Shown piece by piece: positions 2,805-63,225 of a stretch of DNA of 64,000 nt (position 1 is the first letter of the stretch; every line of letters begins with the position of its first letter). The position numbers and the translations under genes are program-made. Location of the stretch: assembly GCF_003260015.1 (NCBI RefSeq), contig NZ_QCXS01000002.1, positions 62,001 to 126,000 on the forward strand, written 5' to 3'. Origin of the DNA: Nakamurella deserti. Its GTDB lineage: Bacteria; Actinomycetota; Actinomycetes; Mycobacteriales; Nakamurellaceae. The notes under the pieces were generated by a model that saw nothing but the letters and a program-made list of their open reading frames with translations, ran no database searches and was not told the origin of the DNA.

Positions 2805-3485
2805 CGGGAGCGGGCCGCGGTGTGCCGATCCGCGTGTTCACCGACCCCACCCGGGACGGCGCGGACGGGCGCCGCCCACGCCGTCCGGGAGTCCGGACGA
2901 GCGGTCGTCGGCCCGTCGTCGGCGGTCGTGTCCGGAGCGGGCCGCGGCATGCCGATCCGCGTGCCCACCGACCCAAACCGGGACGGCGCGGGCGGGCGCC
3001 GCCCACGCCGGCCTGGCGTCCGGACGAGTGGTCGCCGGCCCGTTGTCGTCGGCCCGTTGTCGGGATAGGTCGCGTCCGGAGCGGGCCGCGGTATGCCGGT
3101 CCGCGTGTCCACCGATGCCTGGACGGCGCGGGCGGGCGCCGCCCAGGCCGGCCTGGCGTCCGGACGAGTGGTCGCCGGCCCGTTGTCGGCGGCCCGACGT
3201 CGGACGGTCCGGAGCGGGCCACGGTATGCCGGTCCGCGTGTCCACCGACCCAAACCGGGACGGCGCGGGCGGGCGCCGCCCACGCCGGCCTGGCGTCCGG
3301 ACGAGCGGCCGTCGGCCCGATGACGGCGGCCCGACGTCGGACGGTCCCGAGCGCGCCGCGGTATGCCGATCCGCGTGCCCACCGACCCAAACCGGGACGG
3401 CGCGGGCAGGCGCCGCCCACGCCGGCCTCGCGTCCGGACGAGCGGCCGTCGGCCCGGCGACGGCGGACGGGTGCGGAGCGGGTGC
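2805..3485. repeat. Tandem array, five units of about 127-144 bp
   Basis: The anchor TGCCGRTCCGCGTG occurs at 2823, 2950, 3094, 3227 and 3364 (periods 127, 144, 133, 137). Units share a GC-rich body with the phrase ACCCAAACCGGGACGGCGCG and differ by substitutions and short indels. All six frames stay open because of base composition, which creates long spurious ORFs. Unlike the other arrays here it lies between two divergent genes and does not adjoin a gene end. Confidence 0.85.
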
Positions 3486-3804: not shown

Positions 3805-4959
3805 GTGCCGGTGACGCGGACGACCAGGTTCCTGGGGGTCGACCTGGCCTGGGGGCAGCGCCACCGTAGTGGGGTGGCCGAGGTCACCCCGGACGGAGCG
3901 CTGGTCGAGTTCGGTGAGCGCACCACCGACGACGAGCTGATCGACTGGCTGGGGCCGAGATGCGAGGGACCGGTCGTCGTCGCCTTCGACGCGCCCCTGG
4001 TGGTGGTCAACCCGACCGGGAGCCGGCCCGCCGAGCAGACGGTGGGACACCTCTTTCGCCGTCAGCACGCCGGTTGCCACCCGACCAACCTCGGCCGACC
4101 GGGGTTCGCCGACGGTGGTCGGGCCGCCCGGCTCGCGCGCCGCCTGGGACTGGACACCGACCCGAGGGCCGGCGGCGACCGGACGGCGCTGGAGGTGTAC
4201 CCGCACGCGGCCCTCGTCGCCCTGCTCGAGCTGGATCTGATCCTGCGGTACAAGGACCGGCCGGGACGTGACCTGACCTTCCGGCGGTCGGAGATGCTGC
4301 GCCTGATGGACGGTCTCGAGTCACTGGCGGCAGCAGCCGTGCCGCTGCGGGTGGCGGCCGATCCCCGCTGGCAGGAGGTCCGGGCCGCGGTGACGGCCGC
4401 CCCGACCAAGGCGGCGCTGTCCCGGGTGGAGGACAGCATCGACGCGGTGGTGTGCGCCTACGTGGGTCTGCACGCCCGGCGTCGGCCGGAGCGCACGGCG
4501 TTGTGCGGAACCCTGACGGACGGCTACATCGTCTCGCCGGTCACCGCCGAGATGGCGGCCCGGCTCCCCGCCGTGCGCGCCGCCGGCCACCCGGCGGTGC
4601 TCTGGGGCAGGGGGGAGACTGAGGTGATGACCGATCCCCTGACGCCGGCCGCGGTCGACGAAGCACTCACCGACCTGACGGAGTGGCGCGGCGCCGACGG
4701 CATGCTGCTGGCCGCCTACGCCGCGGACACGGCGGCGGACGCCCTGGCCCTGGTCGCCGCGATCGGTCAGGTCGCCGAGGAGCTGAACCACCACCCCGAC
4801 GTCGACTGGCGCTACGACCGCGTCTTCGTCGCCACCACGAGCCACGACGTGGGAAGGCAGCTCACCGCGCGTGATCTCGCGCTCGCCGAGCGCATCACCG
4901 CGCTTGCCCGGGCCGCCGCGGTGACCGCGGTGCCGGACGAGGCGCGACCCGGAGCGTGA
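3805..4959 (+). CDS. DUF429 protein continuous with a pterin-4a-carbinolamine dehydratase domain
   Basis: 384 aa from GTG 3805 (GTG 3811 is equally possible; the frame is open far upstream through repeats). Residues 8-245 are a DUF429 domain, an RNase H-like fold: LGVDLAWG, VVAFDAPLVV, LEVYPHAALV, and RVEDSIDAVVCAY. Residues about 278-370 are a pterin carbinolamine dehydratase: EELNHHPDVDW, then TTSHD and LTARDLALAERI, retaining the paired His, Trp and second His typical of the active site. The domains are normally separate proteins. An ATG at 4627 (residue 275) preceded by GGGGGAG and GAGG could start a free-standing 110-aa dehydratase. The last codons (VPDEARPGA) are repeated in the downstream array. 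DUF429 function is not established. Confidence 0.8.
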   Translation: MPVTRTTRFLGVDLAWGQRHRSGVAEVTPDGALVEFGERTTDDELIDWLGPRCEGPVVVAFDAPLVVVNPTGSRPAEQTVGHLFRRQHAGCHPTNLGRPGFADGGRAARLARRLGLDTDPRAGGDRTALEVYPHAALVALLELDLILRYKDRPGRDLTFRRSEMLRLMDGLESLAAAAVPLRVAADPRWQEVRAAVTAAPTKAALSRVEDSIDAVVCAYVGLHARRRPERTALCGTLTDGYIVSPVTAEMAARLPAVRAAGHPAVLWGRGETEVMTDPLTPAAVDEALTDLTEWRGADGMLLAAYAADTAADALALVAAIGQVAEELNHHPDVDWRYDRVFVATTSHDVGRQLTARDLALAERITALARAAAVTAVPDEARPGA

Positions 4960-5720
4960 GGGCCACGCCGTCCCGCCGGGGCCCGGCCGGCGGAGGGTGC
5001 CGCGGCTGGGGCTCGGAATGCCGGACAGGGCGCGAGCCGGGGGTGAGGCTCACGCCGTCCCGCCGAGGCCGGCGGTCAGAGGGCGCAGCGGTCGGGGCTC
5101 GGAGATGTCGGACAGGGCGCGAGCCGGGGGCGAGGCTCACGCCGTCCCGCCGAGGCCGGTGGCGGTGGCGCAGCGGTCAGGGATCGGAAATGCCGGACAG
5201 GGCGCGAGCCGGGGGCGAGGCCCACGCCGTCCCGCCGGGGCCCGGCGGGCGGTGGCGCCGCGGCTGGGGCTCGGAGATGCCGGACAGGGCGCGCCTCGGA
5301 GGGTCAGGCTCACGCCGTTGCGGTTCGGGCCCGGCGGGCGGATGCGCAGCGGGGGGGCTCCGAGGTGTGGACGAGCTCAGGCCGCGCCGTTCACTCTCGA
5401 CGGGCGAAGGATGCAACTGTTGGGGCCGTGCGGTGCCCTGGGAGGCGCAACCCGGAGCGTGAGGCTCACGCCGTCGGGGTGATGCCCGACGGCCGGACGG
5501 GCAGCGGCCGGGGCTCCGAGAGTCGACGTGCCCACGCCGTCCCGGTGACTCGCGACGGGCGGAGGGCGCAGCGGCCGGGGCCGTGCGGTGCCGGACGAGG
5601 CGCGAGCGGGGCGGAGGGCTCAGACCGCCCCGGCGACGCCCGACGGATCGAGGCGCAGCGGCCCGGGCTCGGAGATGCCGGGCGTGCAGGGCTCGTCGCC
5701 TGGGGGCGGCGCCGTGATGG
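4930..5720. repeat. Tandem array made from the 3' end of the DUF429-dehydratase gene
   Basis: CACGCCGTCCCGCC-type anchors occur at 4964, 5051, 5138, 5223, 5311, 5467 and 5533 (periods 87, 87, 85, 88, then degenerate). Each unit carries a version of the gene's last codons (TGCCGGACRRGGCGCGA) followed by the stop position. The TGA of the gene sits 7 nt before the first anchor; TGA is kept at that place in units 2 and 6 and is CGA in units 3 and 4. A short hairpin of GTGAG-G-CTCAC or GGCG-CGCC type follows the stop. Beyond 5590 units become irregular. No gene is recognised in this stretch. Confidence 0.85.
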
Positions 5721-31790: not shown

Positions 31791-32148
31791 TGACCCTCGT
31801 CTCTTCGTTCGCTGGTGTCACCGGCGGGTGCATCAGCATCCTGCGGCACCGGACGGGATGCTGCCGTCCGTGCACCATTCGGCACTCCCGCGGCACCTGT
31901 CAATCACCGGGCCGGGCACCACCGACAGACCCGTCCGTGTGACGACCGATCGCGCTGAGCCACCGCGCCCCGCCGGGACCGGTGCGTGGAGCTTGGCACA
32001 CCGCACAGCACGGATCGCCCTCGAAGGCCATCTGCAATGCAGTCTTTACGTGATCTTGGCATACGAGTGACACGACGGCCCCGTGTCCACCTCCGGTCGT
32101 ACGGTCGGACGGCGGGTGACCGGGACGGCCGGCCGTAGGCTGTTCGCC
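31791..32148. promoter_or_regulatory. Divergent gluA/miaB intergenic region
   Basis: No gene. An AT-richer core near 32030-32070 contains the short palindrome CTGCA-A-TGCAG (32032-32042), a possible operator for the transporter operon. The miaB -10 element is listed separately. The gluA promoter could not be fixed. Confidence 0.4.
32136..32141 (+). promoter_or_regulatory. Leaderless -10 element TAGGCT of miaB
   Basis: TAGGCT followed by 7 nt and GTG 32149. This spacing supports that GTG over the upstream in-frame ATG at 32083, which would then not be transcribed. Confidence 0.55.
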
Positions 32149-33687
32149 GTGACCGCTGCACCCGAACTCGTCCCCGCGGCCGGGTCCGCGACAGCCCCGA
32201 CCGTCCCGAGCGCCCCGCGCCGGACCTACCGGGTCCGGACGTACGGCTGCCAGATGAACGTCCACGACTCGGAGCGGCTGTCCGGGCTGCTCGAGGAGGC
32301 CGGTCTGCGGCCCGCACCGGACGACGAGCCGCTGGCCGACGTCATGGTGCTCAACACCTGCGCCGTCCGGGAGAACGCGGACAACAAGCTGTACGGCAAC
32401 CTCGGGATGCTCGCCTCGCAGAAGCACCGCCGACCGGGCATGCAGATCGCCGTCGGTGGCTGCCTCGCGCAGAAGGACCGCGGCGAGATCCAGCGCCGCG
32501 CACCGTGGGTGGACGTCGTCTTCGGCACCCACAACGTCGGCGCGCTGCCGGTGCTGCTCGAACGGTCCCGGCACAACGAACGCGCCGAGATGGAGATCCT
32601 CGAGTCGCTCGACGTGTTCCCCTCCGCGCTACCGGCCAAGCGGGAGTCCGCGTACAGCGCGTGGGTCTCGATCTCGGTCGGTTGCAACAACACCTGCACG
32701 TTCTGCATCGTGCCGAGCCTGCGGGGCCGGGAGGCCGACCGGCGGCCGGGCGACATCCTCGCCGAGGTCGGGATGCTCGCCGCCGACGGGGTTCTCGAAG
32801 TGACCCTGCTGGGCCAGAACGTCAACTCCTACGGGGTGGAGTTCAGTGACCGGCAGGCCTTCGGCAAACTGCTGCGGGCCTGCGGCGACGTCGACGGACT
32901 CGAGCGGGTCCGGTTCACCAGCCCGCACCCGAAGGACTTCACCGACGACGTGATCGCCGCGATGGCCGAGACCCCGGTCGTCTGCCACCAGCTGCACATG
33001 CCGTTGCAGTCCGGTTCGGACCGCGTGCTGAAGGCGATGCGCCGCTCGTACCGGCAGCAGCGCTATCTCGGCATCCTGGAGCGCGTCCGCGACGCCATGC
33101 CGGACGCCGCGGTCACCACCGACATCATCGTGGGCTTCCCGGGGGAGACCGAGGACGACTTCCGACAGACCCTGGACGTCGTCGAGCAGGCCGAGTTCTC
33201 GGCCAGCTACACCTTCCAGTACTCACCGCGGCCCGGCACGCCGGCCGCGACGATGCCCGACCAGGTGCCGCCGGACGTGGTCAAGGAGCGCTATCAGCGG
33301 CTCCACGCCGCGGCCGAGGCGGCGGCGCTGCGGGGCAGCCGCCGGCAGGTCGGCCGGACGCTCGAGGTGCTGGTGGCCGCGAACGAGGGACGCAAGGACG
33401 CCGCCACCGAGCGGCTCAGCGGGCGGGCCCGCGACGGGCGCCTGGTGCACTTCTCCCCGGCGGGCGCGGTGGGGGCGGTACGCCCGGGTGACGTGGTCAC
33501 CACCGTCGTCGACCGCGCGGCTCCCTACTTCCTGGTCGCCGACGGCCCGCTGCTGTCGCACCGTCGGACCCTCGCCGGTGACCGCTCGGAGCAGGGAGTA
33601 CGGCCCACGACGCCGGGTATCGGGTTGGGGCTGCCCGGGTTCGGGCGACCGGCGCCGGTCGCGGTCACCGGCGGCTGCAGCCGCTGA
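32149..33687 (+). CDS. miaB: tRNA-2-methylthio-N6-dimethylallyladenosine synthase
   Basis: 512 aa from GTG 32149. Radical SAM enzyme that adds a methylthio group to i6A37 of tRNAs. The N-terminal iron-sulfur cysteines are Cys34 (YGCQMN), Cys71 ([12 protein letters not shown]) and Cys105 (GGCLAQ); the radical SAM cluster cysteines are Cys179, Cys183 and Cys186 (CNNTCTFC). [29 protein letters not shown] and a C-terminal TRAM domain follow. miaA, which makes its substrate, is 3.2 kb downstream. The last codons (AVTGGCSR and stop) are repeated twice more in the following array. Confidence 0.95.
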
Positions 33688-34010
33688 GCCCCCGGGTCGG
33701 CCGCGTCCGTCGGCGGTCGGTCACGACACCGCTGGGGTGTCCGTCGATTGTTCTGGCGGCTGGCGCCGGTCGCGGTCACGGCGGCAGCAGCCGCTGAGCC
33801 CGCGGGCCGGCTGCGTCCGTGGTGCGCCCGTCGGCGGTCGGCGGTCGGTCACGACACCACTGGGATGTCGGTCGTGCGGACGTGGGCCTGCCAGGTTGCG
33901 GTCACCGGCGGCTGCAGCCGCTGAGCCCGCGGGCCGGCTGCGTCCGTGGTGCACCCGTCGGCGGTCGGTCACGACACCGCTGGGGTGGTCGGTCGTGCGG
34001 ACCGGCCGAC
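33640..34010. repeat. Tandem array made from the 3' end of miaB
   Basis: GCGGCTGCAGCCGC followed by TGAGCC lies at the miaB stop (33671) and recurs at 33781 (GCGGCAGCAGCCGC variant) and 33908; periods 110 and 127. The stop TGA is present in all three copies and the preceding codons (GTCGCGGTCAC) are repeated too. Each unit also has GGTCGGTCACGACACC. The 14-mer is a palindrome, so every unit has a hairpin at the stop codon. No gene lies in 33688-34021. Confidence 0.85.
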
Positions 34011-46337: not shown

Positions 46338-46826
46338 ATGACCATATCGATGGCTTTCCCGGTGGCGGACGGCGGCGTGGAGCCGGCTGTTCTGCGTCCC
46401 GTGGCGGGACCGCGGCGGCCTGCGGCCCGCCGGTCCGCGCCGGTCGCCGCGCCCCGCTCGGCGGGGGTGCGGGAGATGCTCGCCGATGCGCACCGCTGCC
46501 TCGACCGGGCGATGGCCTCCACGGACCTGGCCGACCGCTACGCGGCCGCGCACCTCGGGGCACTGCGTGGAGCGTCGGCGGTCCTGGCGACGCTGCCGCG
46601 ACCGGTCTCGCGGACCGTGCGCAACGCCAGCGCCTGGGTGCAGCTGGAGCGGTTGGCGCCCGAGTACGGGTCCTGGGCGGCGTTCTTCGCCGCCGGGTCC
46701 AGCAAGCGCAAGGCGGCCGAGGCGGGGATGACGCGGTTGATCAGCCCGGCCGAGACCGACGATCTCATCCGGCAGACGGGCCAGTTCCTGGCGTTGATCG
46801 ACGAATCGCTGCTGATGGCCGCCTGA
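46338..46826 (+). CDS. SAV_6107 family HEPN domain protein
   Basis: 162 aa from ATG 46338, with GGAAAGGG about 10 nt upstream; the frame is open from 46269. An Arg/Pro/Ala-rich start, then a helical bundle: MLADAHRCLDRAMASTDLADRYAAAHLGALRGASAVL, WVQLERLAPEYGSWAAFFAAG and LIRQTGQFLALIDESL. The family sits beside dinB in many actinobacteria, as here. HEPN proteins are often RNases, but the canonical RxxxxH motif is not clear. Its stop codon begins a 23-bp repeat array. Confidence 0.82.
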   Translation: MTISMAFPVADGGVEPAVLRPVAGPRRPAARRSAPVAAPRSAGVREMLADAHRCLDRAMASTDLADRYAAAHLGALRGASAVLATLPRPVSRTVRNASAWVQLERLAPEYGSWAAFFAAGSSKRKAAEAGMTRLISPAETDDLIRQTGQFLALIDESLLMAA

Positions 46827-46934
46827 CCTCCGGTTCGGCGCGACCTCCGGTTGGGCGCGATACCGACCTCCGGTTCGGCGCGATACCGACCTCCGGTTCG
46901 GCGCGATACCGACCTCCGGTTCGGCGCGATACCG
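46827..46934. repeat. Five tandem 23-bp repeats directly after the HEPN gene
   Basis: CCTCCGGTTSGGCGCGA starts at 46827, 46844, 46867, 46890 and 46913; the last four are 23 bp apart, the first unit is short by 6 bp. The array starts at the base after the TGA. Later copies are nearly identical, suggesting recent expansion. Confidence 0.9.
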
Positions 46935-49202: not shown

Positions 49203-49583
49203 ATGCCGCTCTCCGAGCATGAGCAGCGCATGCTCGACCAGATCGAGCGCGCCCTCTATGAGGACGACCCGAAGTTCGCCAACAGCGTCGACGAACGGCG
49301 TATCCGACGACGTCGGCCGTTCATTGCGGGGATCGCGTTCCTGATAGGTCTCGTCTGTCTCGTCAGCGGTGTCATCCTGGCCCAGGACAACCTGGGTCTC
49401 GGTGTCACCGCCAGCGTGGTCGGCTTCGTTCTGATGGTCGCCGGCGTGGGTCTACTGGTGTTCGGCCAGCCCGCCGGGCGTACCGCGATGACCGGCAGCA
49501 GCCCCGCGTCGGCGAAGAAGCCCGCGTCCAATCTGTCCGACCGGATGGAAGAGCGCTTCCGCCGCCGTTTCGACCAGGAGTAG
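49203..49583 (+). CDS. DUF3040 membrane protein
   Basis: 126 aa with GGAGGAG 6 nt before the ATG. N-terminal conserved helix PLSEHEQRMLDQIERALYEDDPKFA, an Arg cluster, two TM segments (about 40-58 and 67-86), then a cytoplasmic tail (SDRMEERFRRRFDQE). Rv2169c-like, a regular neighbour of the dcw cluster in actinobacteria. Function unknown. Confidence 0.93.
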   Translation: MPLSEHEQRMLDQIERALYEDDPKFANSVDERRIRRRRPFIAGIAFLIGLVCLVSGVILAQDNLGLGVTASVVGFVLMVAGVGLLVFGQPAGRTAMTGSSPASAKKPASNLSDRMEERFRRRFDQE

Positions 49584-49617
49584 TCGGTAGCGCTTCCCGC
49601 GCCACCAGAGACGTTTT

Positions 49618-49653
49618 CATCACGGGCGGACCCATGCGGGTCCGCCCGTGATG
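49618..49653. terminator. Perfect hairpin after the DUF3040 gene
   Basis: A 16-bp perfect stem with loop ATGC, 34 nt after the stop; TTTT precedes it, so it would also end transcription coming leftward from the tgpA side. Confidence 0.8.
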
Positions 49654-49809
49654 CGTTCCCAGGACGGTTCTCGTTCCGGTCGCTCGGACGCCGATCCTCC
49701 GTGTCCGCTCGTCCCGGGTGGGCCCACGGAGCCGTCGGCCACGTCCGCGCACGGGTGGCGGACGGTCGCCAGGTCACGGTCACTGCAGCCCGGACGGCGG
49801 CGTTCGCGA

Positions 49810-50925
49810 CACGTGCCGTCCGACCGCTGCACCACTGAGCTGGCCGCAGCGGAGAGCCGACGCCGTGCGGCGAAGAATCGCGGGTCTGTCCGCTGCACCC
49901 CTGACTGCCCGCAGCGGCGGGTCGACACCGTGCGGTGACGCTCAGCGGCCGTTCAGGGCGGGTCTGTCCGCTGCACCAACGACCTGGCCGAAGCGGCGGA
50001 GGGCCGACGCTGTGCGGCGATGCTCGGCGGCCGGCCGTGGCGGGTTCGACGGCCGTACCCCCGACCTCGCGGCACCGGAGAGTTGACACCGTTCGTCCAG
50101 GCTTAGCGGCCGGTCATGGCGGGTCCGACCGCTGCACCACTGATCTCGAAGCGGCGGAGGGCCGACGCTGTGCGGTGACGCTCGGCGGCCGGTCGTGGCG
50201 GGTTCGACCGCTGCACCACTGATCTCGAAGCGGCGGAGGGCCGACGCCGTGCGGGGATGCTCGGCGGCCGGTCGTGGCGGGTTCGACGGCCGTACCGCTG
50301 ATCTTGATGCGGCGGAGGGGCGATGCTGTGCGGGGATGCTCGGCGGCCGGTCGTGGCGGGTTCGACGGCCGTACCGCTGATCTCGAAGCGGCGGAGGGGC
50401 GATGCTGTGCGGGGATGCTCGGCGGCCGGTCGTGGCGGGTTCGACGGCCGTACCGCTGATCTTGATGCAGCGGAGGGGCGATGCTGTGCGGGGATGCTCG
50501 GCGGCCGGTCGTGGCGGGTTCGACGGCCGTACCGCTGATCTCGAAGCGGCGGAGGGGCGACGCCGTGCGGGGATGCTCGGCGGCCGGTCGTGGCGGGTTC
50601 GACCGCCGTACCCCTGACCTAACGGCACCGGAGAGTTGACACCGTGCGGTGACGCGCAGCGGCCGGTCATGGCGGGTCCGACCGCCGCACCACTGATCTT
50701 GATGCAGCGGAGGGGCGACGCTGTGGGTGACGCAGCAGCCGGTCAGGGCGGGTCGGACCGCCGCCCCACTGACCTGGCCGCAGCGGAGGACCGACGCCGT
50801 GCGGCGACGCTCAGCGGCCGCTCAGGGCGGGTCGGACCGCCGCCCCACTGACCTGGCCGCAGCGGAGGGCGGACGCCGTGCGGCGACGCTCAGCGGCCGT
50901 TCAGGGCCGGTTCGACCGGCGGAAC
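49810..50925. repeat. 79-bp tandem array continuing into the 3' end of tgpA
   Basis: Anchor points (GCTGCACC or GCCGTACC type) lie at 49826, 49892, 49970, 50052, 50131, 50210, 50289, 50368, 50447, 50526, 50605, 50684, 50760 and 50839: fourteen units, nine successive intervals of exactly 79 bp. The next expected position, 50918, falls in the tgpA coding end, and sequence 50889-50925 is clearly homologous to the unit across the tgpA stop (50901-50903). The stop position is TCA (TGA on the minus strand) in the outer units and TCG in central ones. Central units are nearly identical. The stretch 49654-50900 holds no gene. Confidence 0.92.
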
Positions 50926-53270
50926 ACCGATCGGGGCAGCAGCCGGTCGCGCAGGCCGCGCGGCGCTGCGTGCTCCAGGTCGACGGCGATCCGACGGACG
51001 TCCTCCGCGAGGTCGGCCGCGGGCCGGTCCGCGGTCAGCGTGCCGGCCGTACCCGCCGCGGGCGCCGTCGAGCCGGCCCCGTCCGCCGCGACCGGAGCCG
51101 CGTCCGAGGGCGCGACGGGCGCGTACCCGTCCGGGGAGTACCACGACGACTCGGCGGCCAGCACGATACGGCGCAGCCCACCGCGCGAGACCTCGGTCAG
51201 CTTCCCGTCGCGGGCCAGTTGGTTGGCGGCCTTCCTGATCGTCACTCCGGAGTCGAGATCGAGTCCGTGATCGGTCGCGAGATCTTCGAGCTCCGACCAG
51301 GCTGCCCCCGGCGCACCCGCGCCACCGGCGACCGCCTCGGCCAGCCGCCGGTCGCGCCGTCGGCGGCGCAGCGCCCCGGGTACGGCGAGCGCGGCCCCGA
51401 GGACCAGCAGCAGCACCAGCGTCCAGGTCATCCACGGCTGCCAGAAGGGCGTCGTGTTCCCCTGACCGCCGTCGGCCACGGTCACCGTGCTGACCTCGGT
51501 CCGCGTCTGCCGCGGCTCGTTGCTGGGGATGTCGTCCGGCACGTCGTCGGTCGCGGCGGCCGAGGTCGGTGCGGACGACTCCGCGGACGGGGCGGTGCTC
51601 GCCGCGAACCCGTCCAGGCTGCCGCCCTCCGCGAGCGGAGTGGGATCGAAGCGGACCCAGCCGGCGTTGTCGAAGCGCACCTCGACCCAGGCGTGTGCGT
51701 CATGGCTGTCGATGAGCCAGCTCCCCGACGACTCCTGGGTGCCCTGGGTGAACCCGATGGCGACCCGGGCGGGGATGTCGAGGCTGCGCAGCATGACGGC
51801 CATCGCGGCCGCGTACTGCTCGCAGTAGCCCTGCTTGCTGGTGAGGAAGTCGGTCAGCAGGTCACCGCTGTTGCCCACCGGCACCTGCAGGTCGTAGGTG
51901 AAACCGTTGGCGGGGTCCTTGAACCACTCGCGCAGCAGCAGTGCCTTGTCGAACGGCGTCGCCCCGTCGGCGGTCACCCGCTGCGCCTCGGCGGCGGCGA
52001 GTTCCGAGATGCCCTCCGCCGACGTCAGGGTCTCGGTGGGGGTGACCGTGTCGGCGCGGAGCTCCTCCTGCGGGATCTCGCCGGCGCCGACGGTCAACCG
52101 GTAGTTCTCCGGACGGGTCGACCCGTCCCGGAAGATCGAGCCCAGCTCGGGGTTGTAGGAGTAGTCGTCCTCGAGCCCGGTCACCTGCGAGGTGCCCTGG
52201 TACATCGGGACGAAGCGGTCGGAGAAGCTCAGTACCTGGACCTCGACCTGTGCGGGCAGTGCACCGGGATTGCGGGCCAACGGGCGGACGTCGATGGGGG
52301 AGCCGGCCGCCTGGGCACCGTCGTCCGGATCGACCAGCCCGAAACCCTCGCCGGCGGTCCACGCCTCCAGGGCGGTGGTCCGCAGGTAGTCGGCTTCCGG
52401 GAGGCCGTTCACCCGCAGCACCTCCCGGGACTCGCCACGGACGAGGTCACCGTGCAGAGACGCGAAAGCGGACAGGCCGATGTTGCTGCCGCCGCCGCCC
52501 TGACCGCTGCGATCCAGCCGGCCGGCGGTGCCGACGTCGGTGATCGAGTCGGCGACGATCACGCTGGACCCGATGGCCAGCAGCAGGGCCAGGCCACCGG
52601 CCGCGGCCACGCCCACCCCCGCCCGTAAGCCGACCCGCCGCCCGGGGTGGCCGCCCACCGCCACCAGGGCCGCGTAACAGGCCGCCGGCAACGCGAACGC
52701 CCACCAGGGCAGGAGCGCCTCACTGATCGACGCCGGCACCGAGTACAGGCACAGCAGCGGCAGCGCGACCAGAGCCGGTGCGTCGACCTCGGACACGAAG
52801 AAGTCCACGATCAGCGCGATGAGACCCAGCGAGATGGCGATGAGGAACGACAGTTCCGGGCTGGCCGGCGCCGGTACCGTGCTCTGCACGATCTGGTCCC
52901 ACGCGCCGCTCAGCAGGGTGTGCGCCTCCCGGACCGCCCGCGCGTTGGGGATGAGGCCGCCGTAGCCGCCGCTTGTGAAGACGGCGGTGAGGGTGACGAC
53001 GATGCCGGCGGCCTGGGCGAGGACCGTGACCGGAGCGGGCACCCGCAGCAGCCGGCAGCCGAGGCCGATCAACCAGACCAGCCCGACGATCTGCACCATC
53101 GGGGCGATCCACTCGCCCCCGTCGAGGATGGTGCCCAGCGCGACGCTGCCCGCCAGCACGGACAGTGCGCCGAGCGCACTGGCGAACGGCTTGGGCATCA
53201 CCGGCGTCCGTCCGGCACGTGGAGCGGGGGTGTCGCCGGCGGACGGACGGGTCAGGGTCGGGGCACTCAT
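50901..53270 (-). CDS. tgpA: Transglutaminase-like membrane protein (TgpA family)
   Basis: 789 aa. An N-terminal block of TM segments (about residues 30-230), a large extracytoplasmic region with a transglutaminase core (Cys483 in KQGYCEQYAAAM, the His in DSHDAHAWVEV, the Asp in VRFDPTPL), another TM near residue 620 and a C-terminal cytoplasmic DUF4129-type region with EDLATDHGLDLD. Probably crosslinks or cleaves envelope peptides; in Pseudomonas the homologue is essential. Last gene of the moxR-DUF58-tgpA operon. Its C-terminal codons (RSVFRRSNRP) are part of the 79-bp repeat. Confidence 0.92.
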   Translation of the reverse strand: MSAPTLTRPSAGDTPAPRAGRTPVMPKPFASALGALSVLAGSVALGTILDGGEWIAPMVQIVGLVWLIGLGCRLLRVPAPVTVLAQAAGIVVTLTAVFTSGGYGGLIPNARAVREAHTLLSGAWDQIVQSTVPAPASPELSFLIAISLGLIALIVDFFVSEVDAPALVALPLLCLYSVPASISEALLPWWAFALPAACYAALVAVGGHPGRRVGLRAGVGVAAAGGLALLLAIGSSVIVADSITDVGTAGRLDRSGQGGGGSNIGLSAFASLHGDLVRGESREVLRVNGLPEADYLRTTALEAWTAGEGFGLVDPDDGAQAAGSPIDVRPLARNPGALPAQVEVQVLSFSDRFVPMYQGTSQVTGLEDDYSYNPELGSIFRDGSTRPENYRLTVGAGEIPQEELRADTVTPTETLTSAEGISELAAAEAQRVTADGATPFDKALLLREWFKDPANGFTYDLQVPVGNSGDLLTDFLTSKQGYCEQYAAAMAVMLRSLDIPARVAIGFTQGTQESSGSWLIDSHDAHAWVEVRFDNAGWVRFDPTPLAEGGSLDGFAASTAPSAESSAPTSAAATDDVPDDIPSNEPRQTRTEVSTVTVADGGQGNTTPFWQPWMTWTLVLLLVLGAALAVPGALRRRRRDRRLAEAVAGGAGAPGAAWSELEDLATDHGLDLDSGVTIRKAANQLARDGKLTEVSRGGLRRIVLAAESSWYSPDGYAPVAPSDAAPVAADGAGSTAPAAGTAGTLTADRPAADLAEDVRRIAVDLEHAAPRGLRDRLLPRSVFRRSNRP

Positions 53271-61467: not shown

Positions 61468-63225
61468 GTGTCGAGCAGCCCGAGCCCCCGTCCCGCCCGT
61501 TCGGTACCGCAGTCGCTGGTGCGGCTGGCCGACCTCGCGGGGGCCCGCCTGGAGTTCCTGCGGCCGGCCACCGACGAGGCCGGCCACGAGCTGCCGGACG
61601 GTGCCGACGTGACCGTCACCGGCATCACGCTGCGGTCGGGGGACGTCCAGCCGGGCGACCTGTTCGCCGCTCTCCCCGGTGGCCGCAGCCACGGAGCGAG
61701 CGCGGTCGCCGCGGCTGTCGGGGCGGGCGCGGTGGCGATGCTGACCGACCCGGCCGGGGCCGCGCTGGCGCGGGAGGCCGCGCCCGAGCTGACCCTGCCG
61801 CTGCTGGTCGTGGACGAGCCGCGTCCGGTGCTGGGGGAGCTGGCCGCCGAGCTCTACGGCCGGCCCAGCGAGTCGCTGCTCGTCATCGGGATCACCGGGA
61901 CGTCGGGCAAGACCACGACGAGCTACCTCGTCGAGGCCGGGCTGGTGGCCAACGGGCTGCGGACCGGCGTCATCGGCACCGTGGAGACCCGGATCGGCGC
62001 CGACGTGCTGCCCAGCGCCTTCACCACCCCTGAGGCGCCCGACCTGCAGGCGCTGCTGGCCGTCATGGTCGAGCGCGGGGTGCAGGCGGTGGCCATGGAG
62101 GTGTCGTCGCACGCACTGGCCCTGCACCGGGTCGGTGCGGTGCGCTTCGCGGTCGGCGCGTTCACCAACCTGTCGCAGGACCACCTCGACTTCCACGCCG
62201 ACATCGACGACTACTTCCGGACCAAGGCGCAGTTGTTCGACGGCCGCGCCGCCGCCGGCGTGGTGGACGTGGACGGCGAGTACGGGCGGCGCCTCGCCGC
62301 CGAGCACCCCGAGGTCGCCACGGTCGCGGCGTTCAGCGGCGCGGCCGCCGACTGGACCGTCACCGACCTCACCATCGGCGCGGCCGGGATCACCAACTTC
62401 ACCGTGCACGCCCCGGCCGCCGACATCCCGGTCGCGCTGGAGCTCCCGGGCTCGTTCAACGTCTCCAACGCGGTGCTCGCGCTGGCCTGCATCGCCGCCG
62501 CCGGCCTCGACCCGCTGCTCGCCGCGCCGACGCTGACGTCGGTGGTCGTGCCGGGCCGGATGCAGAGCGTCGACCACGGGCAGCCGTTCCTCGCGGTCGT
62601 CGACTACGCCCACAAGCCGGCGGCGCTCACCGCGGTCCTCACGGCGCTGCGGCCCGACACCACCGGCCGGATCGTGCTGGTGATCGGCGCCGGCGGCGAC
62701 CGCGACCGCGGCAAACGCGCGCTGATGGGGGCCGCCGCGGTCACCGGGGCGGACATCGTCGTGGTCACCGACGACAACCCACGCACCGAGGACCCGGCCG
62801 CCATCCGGGCCGAGATCCTCGCCGGGATCGCGGGCGTCGCGCACACCGCGACGGTGCACGAGATCGGCGACCGGCGGGCGGCGATCCGCGCCGCGGTCGA
62901 CGCCGCCGGCCCCGGGGACACCGTCGTCATCGCCGGCAAGGGGCACGAACAGGGCCAGTACGTCGGCGATACGGTCATCCCGTTCTCCGACGTCGACGAA
63001 CTGACCGACGCGCTGCACGCCCGGGCCGCCGCGCCGACCGCCGATCCGGCCGCCGCGCCGGCCGCCGCGTCGACCGCCGATCCGGCCGCTGCGCCGACCG
63101 CCGACCCGGCCGGCGCGCCGACCGCCGACTTGGCCGCCGCACCGACCGCCGCGCCGACCGCCGACCGAGCCGCCGCGCGATCCGCCGACCCGGCCGCCGC
63201 CCTCCCGGAAGGAACCACCCCGTGA
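61468..63225 (+). CDS. murE: UDP-MurNAc-tripeptide synthetase MurE (meso-diaminopimelate type)
   Basis: 585 aa. Adds meso-Dap to UDP-MurNAc-dipeptide. ATP loop GITGTSGKTTTSY (141-153), TTPEAPDLQ, EVSSHALAL, NLSQDHLDFH and, decisive for substrate, DNPR (436-439), which marks meso-Dap rather than Lys. IAGKGHEQGQ near the end. Residues 518-585 are an extra tail of near-repeats APTADPAA, encoded by a 24-bp repeated sequence; no such tail is expected in MurE. The GTGA overlap joins it to murF. Confidence 0.95.
   Translation: MSSSPSPRPARSVPQSLVRLADLAGARLEFLRPATDEAGHELPDGADVTVTGITLRSGDVQPGDLFAALPGGRSHGASAVAAAVGAGAVAMLTDPAGAALAREAAPELTLPLLVVDEPRPVLGELAAELYGRPSESLLVIGITGTSGKTTTSYLVEAGLVANGLRTGVIGTVETRIGADVLPSAFTTPEAPDLQALLAVMVERGVQAVAMEVSSHALALHRVGAVRFAVGAFTNLSQDHLDFHADIDDYFRTKAQLFDGRAAAGVVDVDGEYGRRLAAEHPEVATVAAFSGAAADWTVTDLTIGAAGITNFTVHAPAADIPVALELPGSFNVSNAVLALACIAAAGLDPLLAAPTLTSVVVPGRMQSVDHGQPFLAVVDYAHKPAALTAVLTALRPDTTGRIVLVIGAGGDRDRGKRALMGAAAVTGADIVVVTDDNPRTEDPAAIRAEILAGIAGVAHTATVHEIGDRRAAIRAAVDAAGPGDTVVIAGKGHEQGQYVGDTVIPFSDVDELTDALHARAAAPTADPAAAPAAASTADPAAAPTADPAGAPTADLAAAPTAAPTADRAAARSADPAAALPEGTTP

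Follow-up and report, generated by a model that had tools for sequence, protein, structure and literature searches.

A 79-bp tandem repeat array running across the stop codon of a tgpA-like gene in Nakamurella deserti

Organization of the locus

The window analysed here is a 64-kb stretch of the Nakamurella deserti genome (4.63 Mb, 6 contigs) comprising positions 62001–126000 of contig C2, and coordinates are given relative to its first base. Within it, a tgpA-like transglutaminase gene converges with a DUF3040 gene, and most of the spacer between the two is filled by a tandem array of 79-bp units (Table 1). Tandem repeat makes up 991 bp (75%) of the 1,317-bp spacer.

Table 1. Features of the DUF3040–tgpA locus, in window coordinates
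Feature	Position	Strand	Evidence or remark
DUF3040 gene, left convergent neighbour	49203–49583	+	Pfam PF11239, E 1.8e-27
Perfect GC-rich hairpin with 16-bp stem, outside the array	49618–49653		34 nt past the DUF3040 stop
Leftmost unit, truncated and decayed	~49814–49879		68% ungapped match to consensus at 49814; 49818–49873 in repeat family D2
Pair of divergent units at the left edge (78 and 82 bp)	49880–50039		66–87% identity to other units
Second-type unit	50040–50118		86% like the unit at 50593
Homogeneous six-unit block	50119–50592		85–99% pairwise identity
Pair of divergent units (79 and 76 bp)	50593–50747		71% alike mutually
Final two units, the second holding the tgpA stop codon	50748–50905		96% alike
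tgpA-like transglutaminase gene	50901–53270	−	Pfam TgpA_N and Transglut_core
Unit-like beginning of the next step, within the final ~10 tgpA sense codons	50906–50935	−	17.4 bits

TRF called a period of 79 at 49911–50932 with 12.9 copies and 84% matches, together with a second call of period 237 (3×79) at 49880–50932. The array of about 14 units proposed by an earlier sequence-only reading was borne out by these calls and by pairwise alignment of the units, which resolved 13 near-complete units and one truncated unit, together occupying 49814–50905 (~14 copies). The near-complete units were 76–82 bp long, mostly 79 bp, and covered 49880–50905, starting at 49880 (78 bp), 49958 (82 bp), eight positions from 50040 to 50593 (79 bp each), 50672 (76 bp), 50748 (79 bp) and 50827 (79 bp), with the next step falling at 50906. 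The tgpA stop codon, at 50901–50903 on the minus strand, therefore lies inside the last unit.

The central units had been described as nearly identical and the units at both edges as diverged. This was true of the six central units but not of the right edge, where the last two units are close to identical, and the contrast between centre and edge is further complicated by the units at 50040 and 50593, which are 86% alike across a distance of seven units. The unit history is one of amplification in blocks, in line with unequal exchange, and shows no simple centre-to-edge gradient. The pairwise identities thus fit the unequal crossing over that had been proposed, a mechanism that we infer from a single sequence.

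A search of the spacer for perfect hairpins with stems of at least 9 bp gave just one, that to the left of the array, and the predicted RNA fold of 49584–49680 had a z-score of −6.13. This hairpin is probably the terminator of the DUF3040 gene. Perfect hairpins with 12–16 bp stems were present 10–30 nt from the DUF3040 stop in five of 14 relatives (L009, L010, L014, L016 and L019).

Continuation of the array into tgpA

The correspondence between the array and the end of tgpA was scored with a profile of ten 79-bp units. The segment 50906–50935 scored 17.4 bits, compared with 11.6 bits for the best other position in the window (125,460 positions, both strands), and none of 1,000,000 GC-matched random 30-mers reached this score, the 30-nt match length having been picked post hoc once the cumulative score was known. 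With a 20-nt match (to 50925, the limit of the range given in the sequence-only reading), 14 of 1,000,000 random sequences and two of 125,500 window positions did as well. Over 37 nt the score fell to −1.1 bits, a value reached by 66 of 1,000,000 random sequences and 25 of 125,432 window positions, and this decay indicates that the homology stops near 50935. Read from the alignment, six of 13 aligned units carry the stop-codon complement at the identical unit position.

The phase of the array thus crosses the tgpA stop, as had been suggested, and the tgpA end is closer to the unit than random GC-matched sequence is. The further suggestion that this is the clearest case of a gene end joined to an array did not hold. 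In local alignments of gene ends with the 300 nt that follow them, a score of 33 was obtained for the gene that ends at 33687, while tgpA was absent among the listed scores of at least 16. The end of that gene (32116–33687), including its stop, recurs twice downstream in a ~127-bp array at 33640–33968; this copy has the highest score in the sample and is a cleaner example than tgpA.

Orthologous spacers in related genomes

The DUF3040 and tgpA genes were convergent in 14 of 16 relatives, the spacer counts omitting L021 (no downstream DNA) and L024 (DUF3040 not within 1,398 bp). The 14 spacers ranged from 11 to 730 bp, with one of merely 11 bp. TRF (score at least 40) identified some repeat in eight of them, with periods of 11–93 bp among those listed, all other than 79. 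In the spacers of six of the 14 relatives TRF found no repeat at the same threshold, where the count may be low: by eye, the gene end and stop recur ~30 nt further on in the TRF-negative spacer of L023. The gene end of L022 was likewise seen by eye to recur downstream.

No match to the 79-bp unit at E 0.001 was present among the candidates scored (at most 38–40 per genome) in 16 other genomes of the genus. Comparison of the array with the DNA downstream of tgpA in relatives gave short weak matches, the best having an E of 0.002 (L016). In L024 a 32-bp duplication extends across the tgpA stop, apparently a similar event that happened independently.

Past the tgpA stop, in the spacer towards DUF3040, L017 (G015) carries a perfect 32-bp inverted repeat at 259–326 nt and a related 13-bp one at 28–57 nt. 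In L013 (G006) a hairpin with a 9-bp stem occurs three times at 36–263 nt past the stop within a 93-bp tandem repeat, the hairpin there being carried by the repeat units.

Placement of arrays relative to genes

The distribution of arrays in the N. deserti genome was examined in 40 stretches totalling 800 kb, with the window excluded and with genes called by a simple codon-model script rather than a standard annotator. Such arrays are frequent in the genome. Of 85 intergenic arrays, the 80 located within called spacers were entered in a placement test, in which each array was given 2,000 random positions within the spacer that holds it and a span was defined as at least 6 nt across the stop. 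Stops were spanned by 15 of 80 arrays against 17.3 expected (P 0.85), and the window alone gave two against 2.5. Starts were spanned by one of 80 arrays against 10.9 expected, and none of the 2,000 placements gave a number as low. The codon-score caller might trim starts, so start avoidance was rechecked with the most-upstream starts. For the 57 arrays that were left (the others presumably become more than half coding), stops were spanned by 15 against 16.6 expected and starts by two against 7.8 (P 0.001).

A bias was also seen in array periods. For periods of at least 30 bp, all 16 arrays wholly within genes had a period that was a multiple of three, compared with 17 of 37 intergenic arrays; for all periods the counts were 104 of 122 and 37 of 85 respectively, leaving 18 of 122 within-gene arrays with other periods.

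The pattern in this genome is therefore one of harm avoidance and not of attraction to gene ends. The sequence-only reading had treated the tgpA array as an instance of a special gene-end pattern, but stops are spanned as often as random placement predicts and it is starts that depart from chance. Given arrays in spacers, overlap with stops is to be expected. A striking repeat entering a gene can thus be explained by placement and selection: a duplication across a stop is protein-neutral, and one across a start is less likely to be so.

Three other arrays in the window may be noted. One (periods 87/172/155, 4931–5675) lies across the stop of a gene called at 3805–4959. Another, of 23 bp (4.1 copies, 98% match, 46825–46934), starts at the stop of a gene called at 46467–46826. 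The third, a 137-bp array of 3.9 copies at 2930–3466, is in the divergent spacer between the genes at 539–2620 (−) and 3805–4959 (+) and contradicts a gene-end rule.

The same test was applied to five other genomes sampled at 400 kb each. Observed and expected stop spans were 3/2.7 (G002), 6/7.7 (G006), 5/2.6 (G007, P 0.06), 2/4.1 (G027) and 2/1.1 (G033), and the corresponding start spans were 0/1.9, 2/4.4, 0/1.3, 4/2.7 and 1/1.1. No single one of these genomes was significant alone for stop or start spans, and start avoidance was significant in N. deserti only. The share of convergent spacer occupied by arrays was 0.025, 0.071, 0.009, 0.157 and 0.008 in the same order; in the genus-mates G002, G006 and G007, the tandem shares were 0.038, 0.054 and 0.008 and the divergent shares 0.013, 0.047 and 0.032. 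Convergent spacers rich in arrays also occur outside the genus, as G027, with its share of 0.157, belongs to another family.

Origin and role of the array

The position of the match within tgpA bears on which came first, gene end or array. The match includes the RSV codons by the PRS motif conserved in the genus (unit positions 20–30, at 50925–50935; P 0.0007 at random for this part alone), and for this reason the sequence suggests that the tgpA end seeded the array. The motif lies near the C-terminus in 15 of 17 tgpA proteins of the genus, with PLS and PHS in the other two, and that part of the gene therefore predates the array. An origin in which the array arose first and then took over the tgpA tail, supplanting the final codons, would fit the tail FRRSNRP that follows PRSV, which is unlike the relatives, where R stands after the residue following P-x-S. 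The resemblance of the unit to the RSV codons of a genus-shared motif speaks against this order, as does the finding that in 14 of 16 relatives tgpA ends 4–8 residues past the same motif, like the N. deserti gene (the tail is longer in L017 and runs off the contig end in L021), and we consider it improbable. It is similarly doubtful that arrays arise preferentially at gene 3′ ends, for instance through convergent transcription or replication conflict that promotes tandem duplication there. Such a preference would agree with the array coverage of N. deserti spacers, which is highest in convergent ones (0.174, against 0.076 in tandem and 0.084 in divergent ones), with the five stop spans against 2.6 expected in G007 (P 0.06), and with the recurrence of gene 3′ ends downstream in five of 334 genes (0 expected from shuffled pairs; score 16, window included and supplying two), compared with 0 of 334 5′ ends recurring upstream at the same score and scope. 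However, the stop spans in N. deserti itself are at the random level, spacers bearing an array make up a similar fraction of the convergent ones (20 of 103) and of the divergent ones (18 of 112), with 30 of 309 for tandem ones, and arrays in tandem spacers are centred near the middle (0.43, n=33). The convergent shares in the genus-mates G002, G006 and G007, set against their tandem and divergent shares, also speak against it, and three other genomes had no excess of recurring 3′ ends (1 of 319, 1 of 300 and 0 of 316) over 5′ ends (two, two and one). The higher convergent share counts against a purely neutral reading in so far as this accounts for it only through weaker constraint, a cause that would suffice but is not proven. 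A broader possibility, to which we give some limited weight, is that the lineage has an unusually high tandem duplication rate, with species-specific minisatellites continually born in gene spacers, mainly kept at the ends of convergent genes, and orthologous spacers that hold unrelated arrays in each species.

A role for the array itself was considered at the RNA and protein levels. The array lies directly past the tgpA stop, between tgpA and the perfect hairpin, where it might act in the 3′ region of the tgpA mRNA as a terminator, a roadblock or a stabilizer made of repeated hairpins. This is very unlikely, given that three units folded on both strands like their shuffles (z −0.69 to 0.81), that covariation across 13 units was absent, with two-sided compensatory change in none of the predicted pairs (0 of 17, 0 of 14), that the sole terminator-like site in a scan of 49500–51000 (at 49654) falls outside the array, and that the orthologous spacer is free of TRF repeats in six of 14 relatives. 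Rfam gave no matches in the 64-kb window at gathering thresholds. At the protein level, the array had been taken as non-coding on the grounds that 79 is not a multiple of three; the conclusion holds, but the argument is incomplete, as a run of three units spans 237 bp and keeps the frame, and 49942–50670 does contain an open antisense frame of 242 codons. The array is judged non-coding by its codon statistics and not by its period. That frame has a flat GC content by codon position (0.73/0.72/0.74), a codon score of −0.257 per codon compared with +0.258 for tgpA, and no Pfam match, so a repetitive protein encoded across three-unit frames can be practically discounted.

The array is thus probably a locus-specific neutral minisatellite that grew from a duplication of the tgpA end and has persisted where it is least harmful. 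Under this reading, a tandem duplication with breakpoints on either side of the tgpA stop would have been the source of the first repeat, the duplicated segment comprising the last tgpA codons, the stop and ~45 bp of downstream DNA. The protein would have been unaltered, because the original stop would still be reached first. Replication slippage and unequal exchange could then have raised the 79-bp unit to ~14 copies and homogenized blocks of them, while selection would keep arrays away from starts and reading frames and tolerate them between genes and past stops. Seen directly are the array and its match to the tgpA end, the lack of the array in the relatives examined and, in the sampled DNA, the avoidance of starts and the multiple-of-three bias; the duplication event, the mode of exchange and the neutrality of the array are inferred. 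The 79-bp locus could serve for strain typing, and the DUF3040–tgpA spacer, with repeats that differ by species, would be a handy place to watch the birth and loss of minisatellites.

Comparison with known repeat systems

Searches of a literature library, few of which named the genus, turned up no publication describing arrays of this type in Nakamurella; PMC9789016 has no mention of ‘repeat’, and in the accessible part of PMC3035273 the only repeats mentioned are CRISPR. The array consists of head-to-tail units of tens of base pairs (TRF period 79, 12.9 copies), as bacterial minisatellites do. It is an ordinary minisatellite of an already published kind, that of tandem repeats over stop codons.

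Matches of the unit to its own genome were confined to the array locus (all seven, among the best 40 of 67 candidates), and a longer query gave one weak 73% match elsewhere. The plasmid collection held no match to the unit, and a comparison of 51 sampled arrays yielded merely two short cross-matches. Mycobacterial VNTR/MIRU loci are likewise tandem repeats of Actinobacteria that lie between genes and have units tens of base pairs long. MIRUs, however, are interspersed repeats whose related units occupy many loci, whereas the 79-bp unit is found at one locus apart from the weak match, and membership in a dispersed MIRU-type family was rejected.

REP/BIME elements are repeats located in the spacers between genes, as is this array. 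They are named as palindromic units (PMC2884548), and here no inverted-repeat pair of at least 20 nt was found in 49600–51000. An assignment to REP/BIME was therefore rejected, the array having no palindromic unit, a three-unit fold with z near 0 and no dispersal.

The closest comparison is with a survey of VNTRs in Yersinia pestis (PMC3689786), in which 10 of 88 VNTRs lay over stop codons and six over starts, one of the six being a CRISPR. The survey argues that overlap with a stop should matter less, and it found diversity to be lower within 400 bp of 5′ ends, although some stop-overlapping loci were nonetheless low in diversity (PMC3689786). The Y. pestis motifs are 1–60 bp and their copy number was measured across strains, whereas the N. 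deserti unit is 79 bp and is known from one sequence; in both, the repeats include the stop codon of a gene (PMC3689786).
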